From an uncultured Trueperaceae bacterium (GTDB lineage: Bacteria; Deinococcota; Deinococci; Deinococcales; Trueperaceae), in the NCBI GenBank assembly GCA_913062675.1, contig CAJXWR010000002.1, positions 31,570 through 95,569 of the forward strand: DNA of 64,000 nucleotides. Reading direction: 5' to 3'. A program made the translations under genes and the position numbers. This document shows positions 24,799 to 57,581 of the stretch, one piece after another. Each line of letters begins with the position of its first letter. Positions within the stretch are counted from its first letter, which is position 1. The notes under the pieces were generated by a model. The model made no database searches. It saw only the letters and a program-made list of their open reading frames with translations, and was not told where the DNA came from.

Positions 24799-25045
24799 TT
24801 CCACCTCCGCACCCCGCGTGTTCGACGTCGTGACGTCCAGGCGACGCGGGGCTGCATCCGCCGTTGGGAATGCGAGACGTTGCCTGGTTCGGCGCTCAAG
24901 ATCGCGTTTGCCGCATGAGCGTACCGCAATCGCCGTGTGATTCTGCAGGGACGAACGGCCATGGCGTGGATGGGGAGCCGTGGAGTCGATAGAGGGACCG
25001 ACGTGACCCGTGGTCTCGAACGTGGATTCGTCGTACCGTCGTTGC

Positions 25046-26263
25046 ATGTCGCTACTTCTGGTCGCTCGCTGGGTCGTCAATGCAGAGGGTACGCAACTTC
25101 TTTCGGATCACGGGGTTTGGATCGATGGAGACACGATCGTCTCGGTCGGGCCCGTGTCGGAGCTACGGCCGAGCGCTGCTCGCGTCCTCGATCTTGGTGA
25201 GGTGACGCTTCTTCCAGGCTTCGTGGACGCGCATACGCACGTGTCGGTGCGACCCGGAGAGGGCGATCAGCATGGCCAGTTGGCGCGACCGCCGGCATGG
25301 TTGGCGTTTCGGGGCGCGCGGAACCTCGAGGCGATGCTCGCCTCCGGCGTGACGACGGCGCGCATCATGGGTGAGCCTGCGGCCATCGACTTCGCTGCGA
25401 AGGCGTTGGTCTCGTCGGGTGACTTGATGGGCCCTTCGCTGCGCGTGGCGGGGGAAGCCTTGTCGGCAACCCATGGGCATGGCGTTGCGTTGGGTGTTGC
25501 CGATGGCGTGGAGGGGGTTCGCCTTGCCGTTCGTCGCAACCTCGCGGCGGGTGCAGATCACGTCAAGTTCTTCATGACGGGAGGCGTGTCGAGCTCGAGC
25601 GGTCGTCTCTTCGACCACCATTATCGGCGCGAGGAGGTGCGCGCCATCGTCGACGAGGCGCATCGGGTGGGTCGACGCGTCGCGGTGCATGCGCATGGTG
25701 GGCCGGGCGTGTCGATCTGCGCCGAGGAGGGCGTCGATTCAATCGAGCACGGCAGCCTCCTAACCGACGAGAACGTGGCGTTGATGGTGAAGCATGGCAC
25801 GTCCCTCGTGCTGACGAAGTCGATCGCCCACCATCCTGAGGGCATCGAACGAGGGGACGCGTCGTCGCCTACCGTGCTCAGCAAGTTGATGGAGGCGCGC
25901 AAGGCGGATGAGGCGTCGTTCGAGCGGGTGCGCCAGGCGGGGTTGCGGTTTGCCTTAGGAACCGATGCGATGCACGGGTTCTTTGGCGAAGAGATTGGGT
26001 GGCTCGTGGACCGCGGGGTCCCGGCGCCCGAGGCGTTCCTTGCGGCGACGTGGGAGGGTGCGCGCGTGCTGGGGGAGGAGGATACGGTGGGTCGCTTGCA
26101 GGAAGGATTCAAAGCTGACGTGGTGGCGCTGACGGGCAACGCGTTCGAAGCGCCGCGTGAGGCGCTTGCGGGGATTCGGTGGGTGATGCGGGGCGGCCGA
26201 TCGTTCGACGTGACCGGCCGCCTTGGCGAAGGTCGGGTCTTACCGCGCCCAGACTTCGTCTAG
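25046..26263 (+). CDS. Amidohydrolase family protein (imidazolonepropionase/prolidase-like)
   Basis: VTLLPGFVDAHTHVS metal motif; SIEHGSLLTDENVALM; LRFALGTDAMHG. Confidence 0.88.
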   Translation: MSLLLVARWVVNAEGTQLLSDHGVWIDGDTIVSVGPVSELRPSAARVLDLGEVTLLPGFVDAHTHVSVRPGEGDQHGQLARPPAWLAFRGARNLEAMLASGVTTARIMGEPAAIDFAAKALVSSGDLMGPSLRVAGEALSATHGHGVALGVADGVEGVRLAVRRNLAAGADHVKFFMTGGVSSSSGRLFDHHYRREEVRAIVDEAHRVGRRVAVHAHGGPGVSICAEEGVDSIEHGSLLTDENVALMVKHGTSLVLTKSIAHHPEGIERGDASSPTVLSKLMEARKADEASFERVRQAGLRFALGTDAMHGFFGEEIGWLVDRGVPAPEAFLAATWEGARVLGEEDTVGRLQEGFKADVVALTGNAFEAPREALAGIRWVMRGGRSFDVTGRLGEGRVLPRPDFV

Positions 26264-27442
26264 GACGCGCATCGTGTTGCCGCCAATGACCTTGGCGATG
26301 TCGGCGTCGTCGTAACCGTGGGCGACGAGCCAACGCACGATGTTTGGGAACGACTCGGTGGGGTTCTCGAGGCCTTCGACGTGCGTGACTTTCTCGAACT
26401 CGAGGTGGCTGCGGGAAGCGCCCAGGGAGAGTTGCGCGGTGAGGGCGTCGTGCAGGCCGACGTGATCGCCGTAGAGCGCGTCGGGTCCGAAGGTGACGTG
26501 GTCGATGCCCACGAGGTTGACGCAGTACTCGAAGTGCTCCATGAACGACTCGATGGAGTGCTTGCGGTTCTTCTCGGTGAGTGTGGTGTGGGGCGCAGCT
26601 TCGATTCCGATGACGCCTCCCTTTTCTGCGCAGGCGCGAATGACGTCATCGGGTTTGAGGCGTCGGGAGTCCCATAGGCCGCGTGCACCGGAGTGGGTGA
26701 TGAAGACGGGTTGGTCACTCGTTTCGATGGTATCGAGGCTGGTTTGGTCGCCTGCGTGGGAGACGTCGATGGCCATCCCGAGTCGGTTCATGCGTTTCAC
26801 GGCTTGCCGTCCGAACGTCGTGAGTCCCCCGTCACGGGGCTCCTTCAGGCCCGAACCCAAAGCGTTAGCCTCGCTGTAGGCGATGCCGAGGCATCGAACT
26901 CCAAGACCGTACATGACGTCGATTCGGTCGAGCTCGTTCTCGATCATGGCGGCGCCTTCGATGGAGACGATGAAGGCGATGCGACCTTCTTCCTTGGCGC
27001 GTCGCACGTCCTTGGTGGTGGTGGCGAGGACGACCATGTCCTGGTGCGCGATGTCGGACAGGCGCATGCCGAGGTCGAAGATGATGTCGTCCCACTTCCA
27101 TCCGTTCTTGGAGGTGATCATCGCGGTGCCGTTCATGAGGTTGTCGAAGACGGCGTCGAGGCCGGCTTGGGCGAGTCCTGCGTAACCGGTCCAGTCCCTG
27201 CCTTGTCGGCGGAAGGCGAGAAACTCGTCGAGGTTCTCTGGAGCGACGAAGCAGTGGTCGTGGAGTGAGATGACGAGGTTGTCGCGGATGAGGTGGCGGA
27301 CGCGTTCCTCTTGCGCGTCGTCGACGGGGTAGACGAACGGTGGAACGCGGTCGGTTTGGCGGGCGAGGGGGTACGCGGTGTAGTCCTCGCCGGGGACGAG
27401 GTACGAGAAGCTTTCATATCCGTCGTAGCGTTTGTCTTTCAT
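26240..27442 (-). CDS. Peptidase M19 / membrane-dipeptidase family
   Basis: LVISLHDHCF, GMAIDVSHAGDQTSLDTIETSDQPVFITHSGARGLWDSRRLKPDDVIRACAEKGGVIGI. Confidence 0.92.
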   Translation of the reverse strand: MKDKRYDGYESFSYLVPGEDYTAYPLARQTDRVPPFVYPVDDAQEERVRHLIRDNLVISLHDHCFVAPENLDEFLAFRRQGRDWTGYAGLAQAGLDAVFDNLMNGTAMITSKNGWKWDDIIFDLGMRLSDIAHQDMVVLATTTKDVRRAKEEGRIAFIVSIEGAAMIENELDRIDVMYGLGVRCLGIAYSEANALGSGLKEPRDGGLTTFGRQAVKRMNRLGMAIDVSHAGDQTSLDTIETSDQPVFITHSGARGLWDSRRLKPDDVIRACAEKGGVIGIEAAPHTTLTEKNRKHSIESFMEHFEYCVNLVGIDHVTFGPDALYGDHVGLHDALTAQLSLGASRSHLEFEKVTHVEGLENPTESFPNIVRWLVAHGYDDADIAKVIGGNTMRVLDEVWAR

Positions 27443-27479
27443 GGGGTCTCCTCCCGAACTCAAGAACGTGCCCTTCTAT

Positions 27480-27537: not shown

Positions 27538-28305
27538 TTAGGTGGGCACCTGATCGACGAAGCCAAGTCGACGGGAGATGTCGTTGGCGGCTTCGATGGC
27601 GAGGTGCCGGTGCCGGTCGGTCGTTACGGCATCGAGCCGCGTGATGGGACCAGCCACGCTGATCGACGCGATGACCTCGCCACGGTGATTGCGAACGGGT
27701 GCAGCGATCGAAAAGGCACCGTCGTCCAGATCTTCCAAGGCCACGTGGTAGCCCTGCTGGCGGATCCTGGTGAGTTGCTCGCGCAGCACGCCCGCCTCCG
27801 TCACGGTAGCTGGGGTGAACGAGGGCAGGGGGCCGTCGAGCACGGCGGCTTGAATCTCCTTGGGCGCATGGGCGAGAAGGAGCGTGCTCCCTCCCCCGGC
27901 GTGTAGGGGTCCATGGCGTCCCACCTCTGCGTAGAGACGGAGATGGGCTTGAGATTGCTTGAGCGCGATGCAGATGCTTCTCGCTTGCTCGCGCACCACC
28001 AGGTGAACGTTCTCGCCGGTTGCCTGGGCGAGACCATCCATGATGGGTTGCGCCGTCTTGATCAGCGACGCCTGATCGCGTGCCCGCTCACCGACGTAGA
28101 GCGAGCGGTAGCCCAGACGGTAGTTGCGCGTGGCGGGATCCTTGAGGACGTACCCTCGCTGCTCCAAGGTGTGCAGTAGGCGAAAGGCATGGCTTTTCGT
28201 TGAGCCGATCAGCTCGGCAAGCCGCGTGACGCCGATGTCGGGATGTTCCGCAAGGGCTTCGAGAAGGTCGATGGCTCGATCGACCGACGTGATGGTGTAC
28301 GACAT
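27538..28305 (-). CDS. IclR-family transcriptional regulator
   Basis: VDRAIDLLEALAEHPDIGVTRLAELIGSTKSHAFRLLHTLEQRGYV; C-terminal effector domain. Confidence 0.93.
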   Translation of the reverse strand: MSYTITSVDRAIDLLEALAEHPDIGVTRLAELIGSTKSHAFRLLHTLEQRGYVLKDPATRNYRLGYRSLYVGERARDQASLIKTAQPIMDGLAQATGENVHLVVREQARSICIALKQSQAHLRLYAEVGRHGPLHAGGGSTLLLAHAPKEIQAAVLDGPLPSFTPATVTEAGVLREQLTRIRQQGYHVALEDLDDGAFSIAAPVRNHRGEVIASISVAGPITRLDAVTTDRHRHLAIEAANDISRRLGFVDQVPT

Positions 28306-28427: not shown

Positions 28428-28452
28428 GAAACAGTGTTTTGCTAAGTGAAAC
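28428..28452. promoter_or_regulatory. Predicted IclR-family operator, racemase/SBP operon copy
   Basis: GAAACAGTGTTTTGCTAAGTGAAAC; core AAACA-G-TGTTT resembles the KdgR-type consensus. Confidence 0.6.
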
Positions 28453-28469
28453 ATTGCGGAGGAGGCGCC

Positions 28470-29219
28470 ATGAAGATCCTGTATCTCGTCCCTGGTCCAA
28501 TGTCACGTGGAGAAATGGGCCGAAAGGAGGTGGAACGTCGACGCGAAGTCCTGCAAAGCATGGCCTTCCCGGGAACGGAAGTGTCCATTCGCGACGTAGC
28601 GGACGGACCCCCTTCCATCGAGTCGGCCTACGACGAACTCATGGCCGTCCCAGCCACCTTGGATGGCATCATGCAAGCCGAGAAGGACGGATTCGATGCC
28701 GTCATCATCGGGTGCTTCGGCGACCCGGGACTCGAAGCGGCCCGCGAACTCGTCAGTATCCCGGTCATCGGTCCAGGCGAATCGTCGCTCCTGTTGGCCG
28801 CAGGCCTCGGACACCGGTTCAGCGTCGTCACGATCCTCGACAACGTAATCGCATCCCAAGAGCACCAAGCCCACAAGGCAGGTGTCCTCGACAAGCTCGC
28901 CTCGGTCGAGGCCATCGGCATTCCCGTGCTCGACCTGATGCGCGACCGTGAGCGCACTCTGCAGGGCGTCATCGAGGCCGGTCGCAGGGCCATCGAACAG
29001 CGACGCGCAGACACGCTCATGCTGGGCTGCATGACCCTCTCCTTCATGGGCATCGGTGCTGAAGCCTCCAACGTGCTCGGCGTCCCCGTCCTCGAAGCCA
29101 ACGCCGTGGCGCTCAAGGCCGCCGAGGCGCAAGTCTCCATCGGTATCTCTCACTCCCCCCTCGCCTTTCCCCGTCCGCCCAAACTTCCCGTCCCCAACAC
29201 TCCGGAGGTGGTCTCATGA
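28470..29219 (+). CDS. Asp/Glu/hydantoin racemase family protein
   Basis: LDGIMQAEKDGFDAVIIGCFGDPGLEAARELVSIPVIGPGESSLLLAAGLGHRFSVVTIL, LMLGCMTLSFMG; start ATG 28470 after GGAGG. Confidence 0.88.
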   Translation: MKILYLVPGPMSRGEMGRKEVERRREVLQSMAFPGTEVSIRDVADGPPSIESAYDELMAVPATLDGIMQAEKDGFDAVIIGCFGDPGLEAARELVSIPVIGPGESSLLLAAGLGHRFSVVTILDNVIASQEHQAHKAGVLDKLASVEAIGIPVLDLMRDRERTLQGVIEAGRRAIEQRRADTLMLGCMTLSFMGIGAEASNVLGVPVLEANAVALKAAEAQVSIGISHSPLAFPRPPKLPVPNTPEVVS

Positions 29220-30862
29220 AGCAATGGATGTCGCTTGCAGGATTCACGCTCGCCCTTGCGCTCGTCGCAGGAGCCTTCGCGCAAGGCGATCGCATTCGTT
29301 CGATCGAACTCCTGTCTCGGCCGCAAGCGGCCGCGCCGCAAGAGTTCCAAAGTGCGCAACTCATCGCCCAAGCATGGCGCGAGCTCGGACTCGACGTCAC
29401 GGTCAACGCCATGCCCTGGGAACAACTCGCCGACGTGGTCTGGTACGAGCGGGACGTGTGGGACGTGACGGCATGGCAAATGGTCGGTCGTCCCGAGCGT
29501 GGAGACCCAGACGAGATCGTGTTCAACCTGTTCCACTCCAGCACGGCTGAAAGCGGCTACAACTTCATCGGCTACAACAACCCCGCCTACGACGCCGTGG
29601 CGGAAGCCCAACGCGTGGAGACCGACCCCGACGCGCGTCAGGCCATCGTTGCCGAAGCACAACAAATCATCAATGCCGACCAGCCCTACATGTTCCTCGT
29701 ACACCCGCAAGTCGCGTACGCCTTCCGTAGCGACATCTGGAGCCCGGACAGCATCGTCGAGCAAAACGGGATCGGCATCAAGAACTTCTGGTCCTTCATC
29801 GGCGCGCAACCCGCCAGCGATCAGCGCGACATGATCCTCAACAGCGCCGACGTCGTGCAAGCCATCAATCCCTTCTACATCAGCGGCGCCGTCGACTCCT
29901 GGATCACCGAACTCATCTGGGATCGCCTCCTCCGCGTTGGCCCCGATGGCCTCCCGCAACCCTGGGCCGCGGAAAGCTACACCTGGGTCGACGACACCAC
30001 CATCGACGTCACCCTCCGCAGTGGCATGACGTGGCACGACGGTGAACCCGTCACCGTGGAAGACGTCGTCTTCTCGTTCGAAGCCCCGATGGGCGGCGAA
30101 GTGCCCATGTACGCCCCGTTCGTCTCCGGCATCGAGTCCGTGGAAGCCCTCGACGACTCGACCGTCCGTTTCAGCCTCAAGCAGCCGTCCGCCGCTTTCC
30201 TCGTCACGAGCCTCGCCAAGGTCAACCTCGTTCCAGAGCACATCTGGGGCCCCATCCTCGCCGACCTCGTCGACGATCCCGACAACGCCGAGTCGTACCA
30301 GGAAGACATGCCCATCGGCAGTGGACCGCTCTCCTTCGTCCGCTGGCGCGCATCGGAAGAGGTCGTCCTCGAAACCAACGCCGACCACTTCAGCGCCCCG
30401 AGCTACGACCGCTGGATTCTCCGCATCGTCCCTAACTCCGAAGCGGCCCTCGGCATGCTGCGGCGCGGCGAACTCAACTTCCTGAGCGCCTACGCAGGTG
30501 ACCCGCAAATCCTCGTCGACACCTCGCAAACCGAACCCATCAACGTCGTGGCCAGCACCGACATCGGATTCCGGTTCATCGGCTTCAACAACCGTCGCGC
30601 CCCGTTCGACGACGCAGCATTCCGCCGCGCCCTCTCCCTGGCCGTCAACCGCAACCTGATTGCGCAAGCGGCCTACCGCGGGTTCGCCGTGCCCTCGAAC
30701 TCGCCCGTTAGCCCCGCGCTTCCCTTCTGGCACGAAGAAAGCGTCATGAACTTCGAGACCGGCATCGACCTTGCCAAAAGCATCCTCGAAGAAGCCGGTT
30801 ACACCACCGACGGCTCCGGACGCCTCCTTTACCCTGATGGCGTGAGCGAGACGCTCGACTAG
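29216..30862 (+). CDS. ABC transporter substrate-binding protein, SBP_bac_5-like, apparently circularly permuted
   Basis: Signal peptide MKQWMSLAGFTLALALVAGAFAQ. aa ~26-165 read like a canonical C-terminal segment (GRPERGDPDEIVFNLFHSSTAESGYNFIGYNNPAYD). aa ~203-548 read like a canonical N-terminal and middle region (ITELIWDRLLRVGPDGLPQPWAAESYTW..LRSGMTWHDGEPVTVEDVVFSF) and end at EEAGYTTDGSGRLLYPDGVSETLD*. Confidence 0.9.
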   Translation: MKQWMSLAGFTLALALVAGAFAQGDRIRSIELLSRPQAAAPQEFQSAQLIAQAWRELGLDVTVNAMPWEQLADVVWYERDVWDVTAWQMVGRPERGDPDEIVFNLFHSSTAESGYNFIGYNNPAYDAVAEAQRVETDPDARQAIVAEAQQIINADQPYMFLVHPQVAYAFRSDIWSPDSIVEQNGIGIKNFWSFIGAQPASDQRDMILNSADVVQAINPFYISGAVDSWITELIWDRLLRVGPDGLPQPWAAESYTWVDDTTIDVTLRSGMTWHDGEPVTVEDVVFSFEAPMGGEVPMYAPFVSGIESVEALDDSTVRFSLKQPSAAFLVTSLAKVNLVPEHIWGPILADLVDDPDNAESYQEDMPIGSGPLSFVRWRASEEVVLETNADHFSAPSYDRWILRIVPNSEAALGMLRRGELNFLSAYAGDPQILVDTSQTEPINVVASTDIGFRFIGFNNRRAPFDDAAFRRALSLAVNRNLIAQAAYRGFAVPSNSPVSPALPFWHEESVMNFETGIDLAKSILEEAGYTTDGSGRLLYPDGVSETLD

Positions 30863-30960: not shown

Positions 30961-31941
30961 ATGCGGACAGCTCGACGCATCGCAAGTCGCTTCGCCCAAA
31001 TGGTTTTCGTCCTATGGGCGGTCGCAACCATCCTCTTCCTGGTGTTCCGATTGATGCCTGGCAACCCGCTCGTCGCCTACATCGATCCCACATTCACCGA
31101 AGAGCAGCAGCAAGAGCTGCTGCAACGATTCGGTCTCGACCGGCCCCTCCACGAGCAATACGTCATCTATCTTGGCAACCTACTCAGGGGAGACCTTGGC
31201 GACTCGTTCTTTTATCGTGACAGCGTCACGTCGCTCCTCTGGGATGTATTTCCGAACACCCTTGCCCTCACGATGGTGGCCCTCATCATCGCCTACGTCA
31301 TCGGTGTGCTCCTCGGCGCCCTGCTCGCCTGGCTCCGCACCTCCCGCTTCGAAGGCATCGCCATTCCACTCGTCCTCCTATCGAGAGCCGCCCCCGAATT
31401 CTGGTTAGGCATGATCCTCCTCGCCATCTTCAGCTTCCAACTGGGTTGGTTCCCGGCCGGAGGGGCATTCACGGCAGGATCGGAAGCGGCCGTCGGCCCC
31501 GGACGCTTCTTCTCACTCGACTTCCTGCGTCACCTCTTCCTACCCGCCTTAACGCTGGCGATCTACCTCCACGGACTGCCCCTCCTCCTCATGCGCTCCA
31601 ACATGCTCGAAACGCTCAAGGAGGATTTCGTCACCATGGCGCGGATGAAGGGCCTTTCCACTTGGTCCGTCCTCGTCCGGCACGCGGCGCGCAACGCGCT
31701 CCTCCCCGTGTTGACCGCTTTCGCTCTCGGAATCGGCTACTCGATCGGCGGCAACGTCGTCGTCGAAACCGTCTTCTCGTGGCCAGGCATTGGACGTCTG
31801 CTCGTCCGCGCAGTCTCAGCGAGCGACTACCCACTTGCGCAAGGCGCGTTCCTCATGATTGCGGCCGTGATGGTCTTCATGAATTTCGTGGCCGACCTCC
31901 TCTACAACGTTCTCGACCCACGGGTGAGCCAAGATGCCTGA
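30961..31941 (+). CDS. Dipeptide/oligopeptide ABC transporter permease (DppB-like)
   Basis: RIASRFAQMVFVLWAVATILFLVFRLMPGNPL; VLVRHAARNALLPVLTAFALGIGYSIGGNVVVETVFSWPGIGRLLV. Confidence 0.93.
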   Translation: MRTARRIASRFAQMVFVLWAVATILFLVFRLMPGNPLVAYIDPTFTEEQQQELLQRFGLDRPLHEQYVIYLGNLLRGDLGDSFFYRDSVTSLLWDVFPNTLALTMVALIIAYVIGVLLGALLAWLRTSRFEGIAIPLVLLSRAAPEFWLGMILLAIFSFQLGWFPAGGAFTAGSEAAVGPGRFFSLDFLRHLFLPALTLAIYLHGLPLLLMRSNMLETLKEDFVTMARMKGLSTWSVLVRHAARNALLPVLTAFALGIGYSIGGNVVVETVFSWPGIGRLLVRAVSASDYPLAQGAFLMIAAVMVFMNFVADLLYNVLDPRVSQDA

Positions 31942-32842
31942 GCAAACCGTTCGCATCCGCCCCTCACGCCGCCAGGCCTTCCTGCGAAGTCTTCGGGAGC
32001 TAGGCCACGTCCTGATTTCCGATCGGTACGCCTTCACAGGAGCCTTGGTCTACGTCGCCTTCATCGTCGTCGCTGCACTCGCCGGCGTCCTTGCACCGTA
32101 CGAACCCACCGAAATCCTCTTCACGCCCGACGGCATGCTCGCTGGCGACTTGCCACCCAGTGCGGATCATCCCCTCGGGACGACGAGCTTGGGGCGCGAC
32201 ATCTACTCGCAACTCCTCTACGGCACGCGTAGCGCACTCCTTGTCGGCCTCGTCGCCGCCTTCTTCGTTGTCGCCATCGGCACGCTCGTCGGACTGGTCG
32301 CCGGATACATGGGAGGCATCGTCGATACGATCCTGATGCGGATCACCGACATTGCCTTCGGCATTCCGTTCCTCCCGTTCGTCATCGTGCTCTCCGCCTT
32401 CCTCGAACCCAGCATCTGGAACGTCGTGCTCGCCATGTCACTCATCTTGTGGCGTGACACGGGTCGCGTCATTCGTTCCCAGGTTCTCACCGTGAAGCAC
32501 CGATCCTTCATCGAAGCAGCACGCGTATCCGGCTCCTCCACCGCCAGAATCCTCTTCGTCCACATTGCACCCAACGTGCTTCCCATCAGTTTGCTCTACG
32601 GCTCCATCGCCGTCGGTTGGGCCATCTTGACCGAAGCGAGCATTTCGTTCCTCGGCTTTGGCGCCACCGACCAGATCTCCTGGGGGTACATGCTGCAAGA
32701 CGCATACCTCAGCCAAGCCCTGTCCCGAGGTGCCTGGCACTGGTTCGTCCCGCCAGGGCTCGCTATCGTCGTCATCGTCGTCGCGGGCTTCTTCATCAGC
32801 CGCGGTTACGAAGACATTCTCTTTCCCAAACTCAAGGATTGA
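31934..32842 (+). CDS. Dipeptide/oligopeptide ABC transporter permease (DppC-like)
   Basis: HPLGTTSLGRDIYSQLLYGTRSALLVGLVAAF; RSFIEAARVSGSSTARILFVHIAPNVLP. Confidence 0.93.
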   Translation: MPEQTVRIRPSRRQAFLRSLRELGHVLISDRYAFTGALVYVAFIVVAALAGVLAPYEPTEILFTPDGMLAGDLPPSADHPLGTTSLGRDIYSQLLYGTRSALLVGLVAAFFVVAIGTLVGLVAGYMGGIVDTILMRITDIAFGIPFLPFVIVLSAFLEPSIWNVVLAMSLILWRDTGRVIRSQVLTVKHRSFIEAARVSGSSTARILFVHIAPNVLPISLLYGSIAVGWAILTEASISFLGFGATDQISWGYMLQDAYLSQALSRGAWHWFVPPGLAIVVIVVAGFFISRGYEDILFPKLKD

Positions 32843-32846
32843 AGCC

Positions 32847-33845
32847 GTGTTACTCGAAACGAACGACCTCACCATTGGATACCGCACCGCCAGCGGAGCG
32901 CTTCGCGCCGTCGAAGGCGTCAACCTCGCAATTCCCGAAGGCGAAATCGTCGGCCTCGTCGGGGAGTCCGGCTGCGGCAAGACGACGCTCGCCCGCTCGC
33001 TCATCGGCGTCATGGCGGGCAATGCGAGCATCGAGCGCGGCGAAATCCGGTTTCAGGGTCGCGACCTCGTGTCCTCGGGTGCTCGCTACTGGAAGGATCG
33101 GCGTTGGCGAGACATTGCCTACATCCCACAAAGCGCCATGAACTCGCTGGATCCCGTCTACCGCGTTGGAGATCAACTTCTCGAAGTCCTGATTCGCCGG
33201 GGTGGCATGGACCGCGCGAAAGCGAAACGCCGGGCAGCGGAACTCTTCGAACTCGTCGGCATCGAAGCCAATCGCCTTCGCGATTTTCCCCATGAGTTCT
33301 CCGGAGGTATGCGCCAGCGGGCGGCCATCGCGCTCGCGCTTGCACTCGATCCCAAACTCGTCATTGCCGACGAGCCGGTCACCGCACTCGACGTCATCGT
33401 TCAACGGCAGATTCTCGACACCCTCGACGACCTGCAAAAGCGCCTCGGAATCTCCGTCCTCCTCGTCACGCACGACATTAGCGTCGTTGCCTACGTGTGC
33501 GACCGGGTTGCCGTGATGTACGCAGGCAAGCTGGTCGAGGAAGGCTCCGTCGATACCGTCCTCGGAAGTCCCGTCCACCCCTATTCGATGGGCCTGATGA
33601 ACGCTTTCCCGGACCTGGGGCGTGCATCCAGGACGCTCGTTCCCATCGAGGGAGCACCACCCGATCTTCACGACCCGCCTGCCGGTTGCCGGTTCGCACC
33701 GCGCTGCCCATTCGTGGTCGATGCCTGCAGCGAGCCTCCCGCCATCGAGTCGGTCGATGAGACGCACCGGGCAGCCTGCTGGCGCATCGGTGAGGCGGAG
33801 GCGCTGAGGAAGGATGCGAGCGAGGTGACGACGTGGCAGACGTGA
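32847..33845 (+). CDS. Dipeptide ABC transporter ATP-binding protein (DppD-like)
   Basis: GTG start [69 protein letters not shown]. Confidence 0.93.
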   Translation: MLLETNDLTIGYRTASGALRAVEGVNLAIPEGEIVGLVGESGCGKTTLARSLIGVMAGNASIERGEIRFQGRDLVSSGARYWKDRRWRDIAYIPQSAMNSLDPVYRVGDQLLEVLIRRGGMDRAKAKRRAAELFELVGIEANRLRDFPHEFSGGMRQRAAIALALALDPKLVIADEPVTALDVIVQRQILDTLDDLQKRLGISVLLVTHDISVVAYVCDRVAVMYAGKLVEEGSVDTVLGSPVHPYSMGLMNAFPDLGRASRTLVPIEGAPPDLHDPPAGCRFAPRCPFVVDACSEPPAIESVDETHRAACWRIGEAEALRKDASEVTTWQT

Positions 33846-34822
33846 AGCCTTTGGTCGAAGTTCGTGGCCTGGCGAAGCACTACGAGCGGCGCGGAAATCC
33901 GTTCGTGCGGCGTCGCGGCGCGAGCGACGTCGTGCGCGCCGTCGACGGTGTCGATCTGACCATCCGTCGCGGTGAGGGTGTGGGATTGGTCGGCGAGTCG
34001 GGTTGCGGAAAGACGACGACCGGTCGACTCCTCCTGAACTTGATTGAGCCCACCGGCGGACAAATCGTGTACGACGGTGAGGACCTTTCCACCATGAACA
34101 CCACCCAAGTCAAGGAGTTCAGGAAGCGTGCTCAACTCGTCTTCCAGAACCCCTTCGACGCCCTCAATCCCCGCTTCACCTTGTACCGGTCGCTCGTCGA
34201 ACCGCTGGCGAACGCTGGGGTGCCCGAGGATGAGCACGAAACGCGGATCTTGCGGGCGCTCGAGCGCGTGCATTTGAGGGACGCGGAGCGACTGCTCGAC
34301 AAGTTTCCCCATCAGGTGAGTGGAGGCCAGCTCCAACGCATCGTGCTCGCGCGCGCGCTGGTGCTTGATCCTGAGTTCATCGTGGCGGACGAGCCCGTAT
34401 CGATGCTCGATGTGAGCGTCCGGGCTGGAATCCTGAACGTGTTGCGCGAAGCGAAGCAGGATCTCGGTTTGACGGCCGTGTACATTTCGCACGACCTGGC
34501 CTTGGTTCGGTACGTGTGTGAGCGGACGGTCGTCATGTACCTCGGTCGCGTGATGGAGGATGGTCCGACCGAGGACGTGGTCGAGCGGCCTGCACACCCC
34601 TACACGAAGGCGCTCGTTGCGGCCGTACCAACGCCGGATCCGCAGCAGGAGCATGTTGCCCTGCCCATCCTGCCAGGGCGACCCGACGCGACGGCGGTGC
34701 CGTCAGGGTGCCCGTTCCGTGATCGCTGTCCCGAGGCGCACGCGCGCTGCGCGGAGGAGGTTCCCGCGGCGCACGAAATTGCGCCTGGTCACGTCGTTCA
34801 CTGCCACCTGTTCGAGTCGTGA
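33833..34822 (+). CDS. Dipeptide ABC transporter ATP-binding protein (DppF-like)
   Basis: [70 protein letters not shown]. Confidence 0.93.
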
Positions 34823-35385
34823 ATCCCGTTGGTACGAGCGGTCGTGTGACGCCGTTCGACGTCCCCCTCGCGCAATTGACGGAAGCACCATCGAACGAGG
34901 ACGTCATTGCCATCCTCGAAGGGATCGAAGGCGTGTCGTCCGCCGCGAATCTGCAGCCATGGGCCGTTCGCATCCTCACCGCAGACGAGCGGGACGGTGT
35001 CGCCGAGGCGGCGCAGGACGCGCTGGGTCGGCCCCTGAAGAACCATCGAAGCGCCGCAATCCGTGAGGTGGCGTGTGTGATGGTCGTGGCCATGAACGTG
35101 GCACGCGCGAAGTGCAGGTTTGGGCTTCGGGGTTCCACGTTGTTCGGTATTCAAGACGTGGCAGCAGTTGCCGCCTCGATGCGTCAGGCCGCCTGGTCAC
35201 GAGGGGTCGCGAGTCATTGGGTGCGTGAAGTGGATTTGGACGTGCTTGCCGATCGGCTGGAGATGCGACCCAGGCTGGAACCTCAAATCGTCTTAGCGTT
35301 TGGGCGGGTGGCGGAGCATGCCGTGCTTGAGGCGCCCCCATCGCTCGCCTGGCAGGACGTCGTGGAGGGGTGGGTGGAACCGTGA
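34819..35385 (+). CDS. Divergent nitroreductase-like protein
   Basis: SSAANLQPWAVRILTADE resembles the NTR SGNxQPW motif; adjacent to a typical nitroreductase. Confidence 0.65.
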   Translation: MNPVGTSGRVTPFDVPLAQLTEAPSNEDVIAILEGIEGVSSAANLQPWAVRILTADERDGVAEAAQDALGRPLKNHRSAAIREVACVMVVAMNVARAKCRFGLRGSTLFGIQDVAAVAASMRQAAWSRGVASHWVREVDLDVLADRLEMRPRLEPQIVLAFGRVAEHAVLEAPPSLAWQDVVEGWVEP

Positions 35386-35918
35386 AGGCTCTCGATGCGA
35401 TTCGTGCGCGACGGAGCGTGCGTGCCTACAAGCCGGATGCCGTGCCGGAGGACGTCGTGATGGACGTGTTGGATGCGGCGCGCTGGGCACCGACGAGTGG
35501 GAATGCCCAACCGTGGACGTTCGTGCGCGTGAGGGAGCCGGAAGCACGTTCAGCCTTGATCGCGACGACCTACGGTGGATACGCGCGCACCGCGCCGGAA
35601 CAGGCGTGGCTGCATTCAGCCCCGGAGTTGATTCTCGTTTGCGTGGAGCCGCTGCGGACGATGGCACGCTACGGATCCGATGGTCGGGCCTATGCACGCC
35701 TCGACGTGGCGGCTGCGGTGCAGACGATGTTGATTGCCGCGACGGCGCATGGCCTCGGGAGCGCATGGGTGGGCGGGTTCGATGCGGATGAAGCCCATGC
35801 GGCCCTGCAATTGGCGCCCGATGCGGAACCGTTGGCCATCGTGGCTTTGGGGTGGTCTGCGGAGGACGTTGCGGAGCCTTACCGTTTGCCGCTGACCGAC
35901 GTTTTGCAGGAGCGTTGA
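35370..35918 (+). CDS. Nitroreductase family protein
   Basis: IRARRSVRAYKPDAVPEDVVMDVLDAARWAPTSGNAQPWTFVRV; likely start GTG 35382. Confidence 0.9.
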   Translation: MGGTVKALDAIRARRSVRAYKPDAVPEDVVMDVLDAARWAPTSGNAQPWTFVRVREPEARSALIATTYGGYARTAPEQAWLHSAPELILVCVEPLRTMARYGSDGRAYARLDVAAAVQTMLIAATAHGLGSAWVGGFDADEAHAALQLAPDAEPLAIVALGWSAEDVAEPYRLPLTDVLQER

Positions 35919-35982: not shown

Positions 35983-37704
35983 TCAGCTCAGGACGTCCGC
36001 GACGGCATTGCGGGCAGCGCGCAGCGTGGCGACGATGCGGTTGCGGCCCCGGACGAGTGACGTGACGGCAAAGGCGCGCTCGTGTTCGTCCATGTCCGCC
36101 AACTTGTCGGCGTCTGCGACGTCGGGAAGTGGGGGAATCGTGAGGGCGGGATCATGGTCGAACCGCGGTCGCGTCGTGTAGTCGAGGGGAACGAGTTCGC
36201 GCGAAAGCTTCTTCAAGAGCGCGTTGGCGACGTCCGGATCAACCGTGCCGGCCTCGAGCTTCACGGCCAACTGATCGAGGCTTTCCTTCAGCCCTTGGGC
36301 CGCTTCCTTGGCTGGGGTGAGGTCGAAGTGCGATCCAGCCGCTTGCTGATAGCGGTCGAGGGTTGCGAGGTGTCCCTGGACGGCGTCGCGGAAATCGAGC
36401 GGGAGGTAGCGTGCCGTGGCGTTGCGGTACGCGGCGAGCGCGTAGATGCGGACGTCCTTCTCCAGAATTTCGCGGTCGGCGACTTCTAGGGTGTCGTGCT
36501 CGGTGTGCCAGGCGATGTTGCCGCCACAACCACCGACGCCGTAGTAGCCCTTTTCCTCACGCACGTCGTCGGGCATCGTGGAGAGCAGCATGAAGTAGCC
36601 ACTGAGGCCGAGGTTGTTGAACGAGTAGTCGCCCGCTTGGTGGGCGCGTTCGGCGAACAGGGGCTGGCCGACGGCGTCCTCGATGATGCTTGCCGCGAAG
36701 CGTTCCGTTTCGGCGGTGAGGGAGACATCCTTGTACTCCGTCGCCCAGCGGCATCCGGGGGAGTCGCAGTTGACTTGGGCGACGCAGTGCTCCACGAGGT
36801 CGACGGCGAAGGTGTCGGCGTACCAGGTGCTTCCTGCGTAGCGACCGGTGGAGTGGCCGGGCCACCATGCAATGCGGACGCCTCGCGTCAACTCATCCTT
36901 GCGGGCGTGCAGCAGGCGCGCAAGTTCGAGCAGGGTGGCGTCCCCGGTCGCGTTGTCGCCGACACCGACGTCCCAACTGTCGTAGTGGCCGTGGACGAGG
37001 ACGAAGTCGTCACTGTCCTTGCCGTCGATTCGGACTTCCGGAACGATGCTCTTGAACCAACCCGATTCCATCGTGACGGCGACGGTGACGGATTCACCGC
37101 GTTCTGCCATGGCTTTGAGGGTGTCGCCGTCAGGTCGATTGACGTTGATGGCTGGAATGTTTGGCGCGCCGTTGCGCTCGTCGTGACCAGGGGTGCCCCA
37201 CACGGACGTGCAGGTTCCCCAGTGCGAGTCGGCGCCGGGGTTGATGGCAATGACGGCGGCGGCACCGAGTCGCGCCAGATTGGTGACGGTCGCGGGACTG
37301 GCAAACCCTTCGGTGATGGCGATCTTGCCGGTCACGTCGGTGCGGGCGGCCGCTTTCGCGTCGAAGGTGTCGAACACGTCTTCACTACCAATGGCGAACC
37401 CGGCGGGGACGTAGACGAGCGGCGCGGTGACGCCGTCTTTTGCGTCGGCACACCCTGCGGGCGCTTTGCCGCCAAACGTGACGTCACCTGCGCGGACCTC
37501 GGCGTGGTGGGGAATGGTGAGGAAGATGGAAGCTTCGTGCATGAGGACGGGAATGCCGTGTGCGCGAAGTCGTTCGGCGATCATTTCCGCTGCCGCATTC
37601 ACGTCACGAGGATGGACGCGAGGATGCTGCGCGAAGGTTTCCACGAGTTCCCATGGAACCGTCATGTCAATGGCATCAAGAAGACGACGTTCTGCGTCGG
37701 TCAC
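35983..37704 (-). CDS. Peptidase M28 family metallopeptidase
   Basis: DDFVLVHGHYDSWDVGVGDNATGDATLLELARLLHA; GVRIAWWPGHSTGRYAGSTWYA; GTG start. Confidence 0.9.
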   Translation of the reverse strand: MTDAERRLLDAIDMTVPWELVETFAQHPRVHPRDVNAAAEMIAERLRAHGIPVLMHEASIFLTIPHHAEVRAGDVTFGGKAPAGCADAKDGVTAPLVYVPAGFAIGSEDVFDTFDAKAAARTDVTGKIAITEGFASPATVTNLARLGAAAVIAINPGADSHWGTCTSVWGTPGHDERNGAPNIPAINVNRPDGDTLKAMAERGESVTVAVTMESGWFKSIVPEVRIDGKDSDDFVLVHGHYDSWDVGVGDNATGDATLLELARLLHARKDELTRGVRIAWWPGHSTGRYAGSTWYADTFAVDLVEHCVAQVNCDSPGCRWATEYKDVSLTAETERFAASIIEDAVGQPLFAERAHQAGDYSFNNLGLSGYFMLLSTMPDDVREEKGYYGVGGCGGNIAWHTEHDTLEVADREILEKDVRIYALAAYRNATARYLPLDFRDAVQGHLATLDRYQQAAGSHFDLTPAKEAAQGLKESLDQLAVKLEAGTVDPDVANALLKKLSRELVPLDYTTRPRFDHDPALTIPPLPDVADADKLADMDEHERAFAVTSLVRGRNRIVATLRAARNAVADVLS

Positions 37705-56096: not shown

Positions 56097-57581
56097 TTAC
56101 TGGACGGTGACCGACCGGAAGTCGTACGAGTCGAGGAGGGGCGTCATCCAGAAACCCTCCACGTTTGCACGGTGGGCATGGCTGCGGTTGCTTGCACCGA
56201 AGTAAATGAAGGGCGTCGTGTCATGCAGCCGATGCAAGACCTCGCCGTACAGTGCAGCGCGCGCCGTCTGATCCGGCTCGGCGGCAGCTTCGGAAAGGAG
56301 GCTGACCGACGTCGGGTCGTCCCAACCCACGTACGTTGCATCGGGATCTCCATACCCACCGAGTCGACCGGTCGGGTCGAGTTTGCCGGTGTGACCAATC
56401 ACGGTGAGGTCGAAGTCACGGTCACCGCGGTACACCTCGCCGAGCCACACGCCCCACTCGACCACGCGAATCTCGACGTTCACGCCCACGTCAGCCAGCA
56501 TGTCCTGCACGATTTGGCCTGCCTGCACGTGCACCTCGTACGGTTGGGGGAGGGCCATGTCGAGCGTCCAGTCGTCGGGCACCCCGGCCTCATCGAGCAG
56601 GGCGCGTGCACGTTCAGGATCGTAGCCGTAGGGTTCCACGTCGCTCGGCAGCCACGGGTTGCCCGGCTCCATGAAACTGCCCGTCATCGTGCCACCGCCG
56701 TAGGCCACGTCGAGCACGGTCTGGGCATCGACGGCGAGGTTGAGCGCCTGGCGCACCCTGGCATCGTCGAGGTAGGGACGGCGGTTGTTGATGGAGGTGA
56801 CGAGCACCGTGCCGGAGGGCTCCTGCACGAGCGTGACGTCGTCGCGGTTCGCGATCGTGGCGAGATCCGCGGTGGCCACGCCTCCAATCACGTGGAAATC
56901 GCCCGACAGGAGGCCTTGAACTTGGACGGCGCTGTCCGTGACGAAGCGGAGGGTGACGCTGTCGATGCTGGGCGCGCCCTTGAAGTAGTCGGGGTTTGCG
57001 GTGAGTCGGAGATAACCGTCACGCACCCATTCGTCGAACATGAAGGCGCCGGTCCCGATGGGCTCGTTGGCGAAGTCATGGTTCGCGGCAATCTTCTCCG
57101 AGGGCAGCATCGCGCCCCAGCCCGACGCGAGGCTCGCAAGGAGGGCGGGGGTGGGTTGGTCAAGCATGACGCGCAGGGTACGCGCGTCGACCGCTTCGAT
57201 CTCGCGGATGGCCGTGAATTCCTCCGCCTTGGGGGATACGTCGGCATCCCGAAGGCGGTTCAGGCTCGCGATGGCATCGTCGGCATCGAAGGGCGTACCG
57301 TCGTGGAAGGTGGCTTCGGCGAGGTCGAAGGTCCACACCGTGCCGTCGTCGCTGATGCTCCAGCTCGTGGCGAGGAGGGGTTGGATCGTGCCGTCGCGAC
57401 CCACTTCCACGAGCGTGTCGTAGATCGACTTGGTGGACTGGAATGCGCTGGTGGCCGACGTGCCGTGCGGGTCGAGCATGTCGGGTTGCGCGCTGGTGGC
57501 CATCACGAGGTCTTGGGCGACCCCGATGCTCAGCGAGGTGGCGAGGAGGGCGGCGAGGGCGGAACGAACGACGTGATTCAT
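56097..57581 (-). CDS. ABC transporter substrate-binding protein, SBP_bac_5, canonical order
   Basis: Signal peptide, then DMLDPHGTS..IYDTLVEVGRDGTIQPLLATSWSISDDGTVWTFDLAEATFHDGTPFDADDAIAS; later QALNLAVDAQTVLD, ARALLDEAGVPDDWTLDM, QIVQDMLADVGVNVEIR. Confidence 0.93.
   Translation of the reverse strand: MNHVVRSALAALLATSLSIGVAQDLVMATSAQPDMLDPHGTSATSAFQSTKSIYDTLVEVGRDGTIQPLLATSWSISDDGTVWTFDLAEATFHDGTPFDADDAIASLNRLRDADVSPKAEEFTAIREIEAVDARTLRVMLDQPTPALLASLASGWGAMLPSEKIAANHDFANEPIGTGAFMFDEWVRDGYLRLTANPDYFKGAPSIDSVTLRFVTDSAVQVQGLLSGDFHVIGGVATADLATIANRDDVTLVQEPSGTVLVTSINNRRPYLDDARVRQALNLAVDAQTVLDVAYGGGTMTGSFMEPGNPWLPSDVEPYGYDPERARALLDEAGVPDDWTLDMALPQPYEVHVQAGQIVQDMLADVGVNVEIRVVEWGVWLGEVYRGDRDFDLTVIGHTGKLDPTGRLGGYGDPDATYVGWDDPTSVSLLSEAAAEPDQTARAALYGEVLHRLHDTTPFIYFGASNRSHAHRANVEGFWMTPLLDSYDFRSVTVQ

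Follow-up and report, generated by a model that had tools for sequence, protein, structure and literature searches.

The gene at 29216-30862 of the window, by which we mean the whole 64,000-nucleotide stretch of DNA analysed here, raises the question of how a substrate-binding protein (SBP) can carry the usual C-terminal part of its family ahead of the usual N-terminal part, and of where such a protein came from. The initial annotation had read it as a naturally circularly permuted peptide-binding protein. We confirm that the 548-aa product is a natural circular permutant: both of its segments are homologous to one canonical parent, and their order is exchanged. The frame is open over 548 aa on the forward strand and begins with an N-terminal signal peptide. 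The features on which the argument turns are the following:

29216-30862, forward strand: circularly permuted SBP_bac_5 (Cluster C) substrate-binding protein, 548 aa, from Pfam, AppA, HMM and structure model
29216-29281, forward strand: signal peptide, residues 1-22, MKQWMSLAGFTLALALVAGAFA, Sec type by eye, read from the sequence; residues 1-9 and 16-21 have low pLDDT
29285-29800, forward strand: residues 24-195, C-terminal in canonical members and here first (canonical-HMM profile 351-490; Pfam profile 298-365)
29801-29827, forward strand: linker, residues 196-204, in which the former C-terminal end runs into the former start of the mature chain with no signal peptide between them; conserved throughout the clade
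29828-30859, forward strand: residues 205-548, the N-terminal and middle part in canonical members and here last
56097-57581, reverse strand: canonical-order SBP_bac_5 paralogue, used as a control, one collinear stretch

In its natural order the protein matches the Pfam SBP_bac_5 profile (PF00496) at 240.3 bits against a cut-off of 32.4 (E 4.6e-71), and judged by its sequence it is a homologue of this family, yet a permuted one. The match consists of two stretches that are out of order. The better one places residues 247-535 on profile positions 2-284, and the N-terminal part taken alone (29285-29830) matches positions 298-365, so that the stretch behind the signal peptide is the C-terminal part of the family, as had been proposed. 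Without rotation no end-to-end alignment in canonical order is obtained; a collinear match over the whole profile is absent in the natural order and appears only after rotation. When the chain is rearranged as residues 200-548 followed by 24-199, a single stretch (48-436) covers profile positions 2-365 of 368 and the score is 249.3 rather than 240.3 bits. The best solved relative, AppA of Bacillus subtilis (1xoc), behaves in the same way: residues 205-542 align on chain positions 23-357 and residues 48-169 on 378-494, while the rotated protein gives one stretch, 16-495 on 33-494. Joining end to start thus restores the canonical order, as the initial annotation had predicted, and its placement of the canonical N-terminus at about residue 203 (29822) was right to within a few residues. 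In tblastn searches with the rotated protein, single segments in canonical genes of the phylum span the artificial joint.

The order is shared by homologues, which had been suggested as a search and were found in other genomes. An order-test HMM built from canonical proteins only found the C-terminal profile segment ahead of the N-terminal one in all 44 homologues examined, and each of the 44 gave one continuous match after rotation. Five additional homologues are likewise reversed in natural order, so that 49 of 49 checked are swapped; they come from Deinococcota, Alphaproteobacteria and haloarchaea, finished replicons included. Every one of the 21 canonical control proteins, namely Escherichia coli DppA, the window paralogue at 56097-57581, which had been cited as the example of normal order, and 19 others, gave one collinear match. 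We regard the swapped order in the 548-aa protein as close to certain.

Structure prediction, another check that had been proposed, agrees. An AlphaFold2 model built on an alignment of 38 permuted proteins is confident (pLDDT 91, pTM 0.87), and the 50 best matches listed by Foldseek are all proteins of the DppA/OppA/AppA/NikA type (Cluster C), headed by AppA, NikZ and DppA. Foldseek keeps chain order in its comparison, and the model aligns with AppA over 371 columns only (TM 0.44, E 1e-18), whereas L105, the closest relative of canonical order, for which a model was made by the same procedure as a control (pLDDT 85.7), aligns over its whole length (518 columns, TM 0.85, E 3e-41). Once the rotation is allowed for, helices and strands follow one another in the same sequence in both models. 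After the point that corresponds to the break, L105 has strand 356-362, helix 366-382, strand 385-391, helix 393-400 and strand 414-420, then helices 450-461 and 465-482 and strand 485-498; the matching series stands at the start of the window protein, as strand 30-34, helix 41-56, strand 61-65, helix 68-77 and strand 84-89, then helices 123-134 and 138-155 and strand 158-171. The protein is accordingly predicted to have the Cluster C fold. No solved structure covering it in natural order was found by PDB sequence search or Foldseek.

To place the permuted proteins among their relatives, 36 of them, rotated, were analysed with 45 canonical proteins in IQ-TREE; the tree is unrooted and drawn from its midpoint. 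The permuted set forms a single branch (support 100/99) that is present in all 200 bootstrap trees, with one label change, and by this tree its bacterial and archaeal members together are monophyletic. Joined to it on a supported branch (98/98) are four canonical sequences from Deinococcota (L105, L109, L117 and L123). When a tree is made from each half of the protein alone, the permuted set groups with the same four both times. The true sister may lie elsewhere, since the canonical comparators come almost wholly from two phyla. The linker carries a record of the old ends: the canonical C-termini of two of these relatives (GILNKFSFLP and GIINKRSFLQGQ) align on the permuted linker GIGIKNFWSFIGAQP, and the canonical mature N-terminus AQQLVLAIPADEG aligns on ASDQRDMILNSAD, just after it. 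The linker is conserved out to the haloarchaea, and no remnant of a signal peptide was found in it. The single clade, the same parent group for both halves and a linker made of the old ends together suggest that a single gene lineage was rearranged once, long ago, most likely by duplication followed by trimming.

We therefore consider it very probable, as an overall explanation, that the gene is a real, inherited circular permutant of one ancestral DppA-like Cluster C gene. The C-terminal third of that ancestor would have moved ahead of the N-terminal two thirds, with the old C-terminus fused straight to the start of the old mature chain and a helix-strand loop of the C-terminal lobe opened to give the new ends. 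The residues 205-548 segment ends in the helix/strand loop that matches about positions 371-375 of E. coli DppA, and the new termini lie in this loop, between a helix (EAGY) and a strand; its length varies among canonical members. The equivalent of the break in OppA lies, we presume, inside domain III. A break there would keep both lobe crossings and the cleft and would shift the ends from the N-terminal to the C-terminal lobe, and the domain halves, the two-crossing hinge and the binding cleft should thus survive.

Permutation by duplication is a known route for natural permutants, and it would be the likeliest one here. A tandem in-frame copy may have arisen first, after which the N-terminal part of the first copy past its signal peptide, the second signal peptide and the C-terminal part of the second copy would have been lost. 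No extant tandem-duplicate intermediate was seen; a 1070-aa frame (G000:C5) considered as a candidate proved to be one canonical SBP with an open upstream stretch. The gene might instead have been split and its pieces rejoined in the other order with no tandem stage. A linker free of any second signal-peptide trace is expected by this route too, and the data do not separate it from duplication. It requires two breaks and a new signal peptide, however, and no split SBP genes were seen. On balance we hold fission and refusion to be an unlikely route, though the one competitor that deserves some weight.

A chimera, in which two segments of two different SBP genes were fused, could have drawn on ample raw material, as such genomes carry many SBP_bac_5 paralogues. 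It is disfavoured because the separate-segment trees share the same four relatives, and the ends of these canonical proteins, C-terminal and N-terminal, are both matched by the linker; we consider such an origin improbable. Still less credible is that the swapped order is ancestral and the canonical SBP_bac_5 order derived: an unrooted tree drawn from its midpoint leaves room for it, but the permuted proteins are one narrow clade sharing a supported branch with four canonical sequences only (98/98), and the rest of the proteins sampled, E. coli DppA among them, are canonical. What we continue to favour is a permutation within one canonical gene lineage.

The spread of the swapped order is wide. 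It is found at 69-86% identity in other genomes of the window's family, one of which (G012) is a single 4.3-Mb contig. Alphaproteobacterial homologues have 50-67% identity, and 17 named alphaproteobacterial contigs carry one at 60-67%. In a sample of alphaproteobacterial genomes, 13 of 386 had a swapped homologue, one of these 13 being a fragment at a contig end. Finished plasmids of Nitratireductor, Neorhizobium, Microvirga, Roseomonas and Ketogulonicigenium carry swapped homologues, and distant members (25-33% identity) lie on finished plasmids of Halalkalicoccus, Haladaptatus, Natrononativus and Halorussus. In each of seven alphaproteobacterial genomes, just one of the 4-26 family matches (E <=1e-10) is a full-length permuted copy. 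In a profile search of 399 Pseudomonadota genomes, limited to three scored candidates per genome and hence giving a soft absence, a match crossing the linker was seen only in the seed genome; a plasmid search with the divergent member L092 gave no match at 1e-60. The idea that two adjacent SBP genes were wrongly joined in a draft metagenome assembly has next to no probability: the window's genome is indeed a 196-contig draft, but the order recurs at 60-86% identity in independent genomes, including the one-contig G012, and in finished plasmids, with linker and breakpoint conserved, which agrees with the earlier view that the order is no misassembly.

Some members of the clade have features of their own. 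The divergent alphaproteobacterial proteins L077 (1447-3348, reverse strand) and L092 (1426-3237, reverse strand) are longer, by about 50 residues behind the leader and by about 30 past the usual end. A plasmid of Nitratireductor sp. OM-1 encodes two different permuted SBPs (L168, 8001-9512, and L062), one of the core and one of the outer group, each with importer genes of its own. The Aquamicrobium copy (L041) and one Neorhizobium galegae copy (CP090555) appear frameshifted or split, unlike their close relatives.

Natural permutation of a binding protein has a precedent in another cluster. TpMglB-2 (Tp0684) of Treponema pallidum is a circularly permuted glucose-binding protein, assigned to 'Cluster Bc', with a fourth hinge crossing and no more than 13% identity over the moved part (PMC4990184). 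Like the window protein, it is a natural circular permutant of an ABC importer binding protein and is conserved in a clade. It is, however, a Cluster B sugar binder, whereas the window protein belongs to Cluster C by Pfam and fold and so is not a 'Cluster Bc' member; moreover, the moved part of the window protein is clearly homologous and its crossings should stay at two. With canonical DppA, OppA, AppA and NikA of Cluster C, the window protein shares family by sequence, fold, DppBCDF-type partners and a signal peptide, but it differs from them in its swapped segments, in its new ends (about DppA 371-375) and in its joined old ends. EppA of Chelativorans sp. BNC1, an EDTA-binding protein, is also of Cluster C, with the usual topology and a two-strand hinge (PMC7312458). 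A Chelativorans species is among the hosts of permuted proteins; for EppA itself, permutation is not reported (PMC7312458).

A search of the open-access literature found no description of a permuted SBP_bac_5 (Cluster C) protein, in agreement with the view that no such lineage had been described; the nearest precedent in the literature searched is TpMglB-2 of Cluster B. No curated NCBIfam model reaches its cut-off on the window protein, and database records of permuted homologues read only 'ABC transporter substrate-binding protein', a plain label that hides the permutation and holds a lesson for annotation. Engineers permute binding proteins to make sensors, and natural cases are few. Here a permuted form of a very common family has been kept in both Bacteria and Archaea, and canonical relatives exist to set beside it, which makes testable how chain order, the position of the termini and the anchor lobe bear on folding, export, ligand capture and docking. 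The leaders of permuted members are, by eye, of Sec type, Tat-like (RRTFL, RRAFLKG) or lipoprotein-like (haloarchaeal, ..AGC), and where they are of the lipoprotein kind, the anchor to the membrane would emerge on the opposite lobe. A bolder reading, in which one ancient permutation gave rise to a Cluster C lineage of its own ('Cluster Cc') in Bacteria and Archaea alike, with leader or anchor leaving from the C-terminal lobe and importer docking co-adapted, is one that we put forward as doubtful.

What the protein may do is indicated by its neighbours, which in the window are:

25010-26263, forward strand: amidohydrolase (Amidohydro_1)
26240-27463, reverse strand: membrane dipeptidase, peptidase family M19
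27538-28305, reverse strand: IclR-family regulator, 50% identical to an annotated IclR gene of the Nitratireductor locus
28446-29219, forward strand: gene of the Asp/Glu/hydantoin racemase family, sharing ATGA (29216-29219) with the start of the SBP gene
30961-31941, forward strand: DppB-type permease (Pfam BPD_transp_1; locus comparison)
31934-32842, forward strand: DppC-type permease (locus comparison)
32658-33845, forward strand: DppD-type ATPase, an open frame whose true start is probably further in (locus comparison)
33833-34822, forward strand: DppF-type ATPase (ABC_tran and oligo_HPY)
34819-35385, forward strand: nitroreductase family
35370-35918, forward strand: nitroreductase family
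35983-37704, reverse strand: M28 peptidase with PA domain, a conserved neighbour

The signal peptide, the ATGA overlap with the racemase gene at 29216-29219 and the intact downstream dppBCDF frames were all found as first described, so that the 548-aa protein has both a signal peptide (by eye) and linked DppBCDF-type importer genes. Where enough flanking sequence is present, genes of the dppB, C, D and F types adjoin the permuted SBP at nearly every locus. In the core group the order is M28 peptidase, IclR, racemase, SBP, dppBCDF, then a quinone reductase or a hydantoinase/oxoprolinase, and it is common, with variations, to the window's family and Alphaproteobacteria. Near distant members stand creatininase, M20 hydrolase, dipeptide epimerase or D-aminoacylase genes. 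Since its gene adjoins dppBCDF-type genes, the permuted SBP is probably a working binding protein of a DppBCDF-type importer, an assignment made from sequence and gene order; it would most likely capture a small amide, dipeptide or hydantoin-like solute and pass it to the adjacent importer. The substrate is perhaps to be sought among hydantoin-like compounds, N-carbamoyl or N-acyl amino acids and D-amino-acid dipeptides. The ligand is not readable from DppA contacts, because the permuted sequences have a gap opposite R383, a ligand residue of E. coli DppA, although 36 of 44 carry an acidic residue at the D436 position; R92 and R95 are near-invariant in the permuted clade and are a feature of its own. 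In E. coli, residues E41-R42 of the DppB scoop loop contact the ligand site of DppA (PMC12136057); like DppA R383, they are not conserved in the permuted systems, the DppB partners in the window (30961-31941) and at L062, L063, L064 and L165 having no scoop-loop E41-R42. The nitroreductase tandem just past dppF (34819-35385 and 35370-35918) occurs also at the same-genus locus L147, and was not seen at the other loci of the clade.
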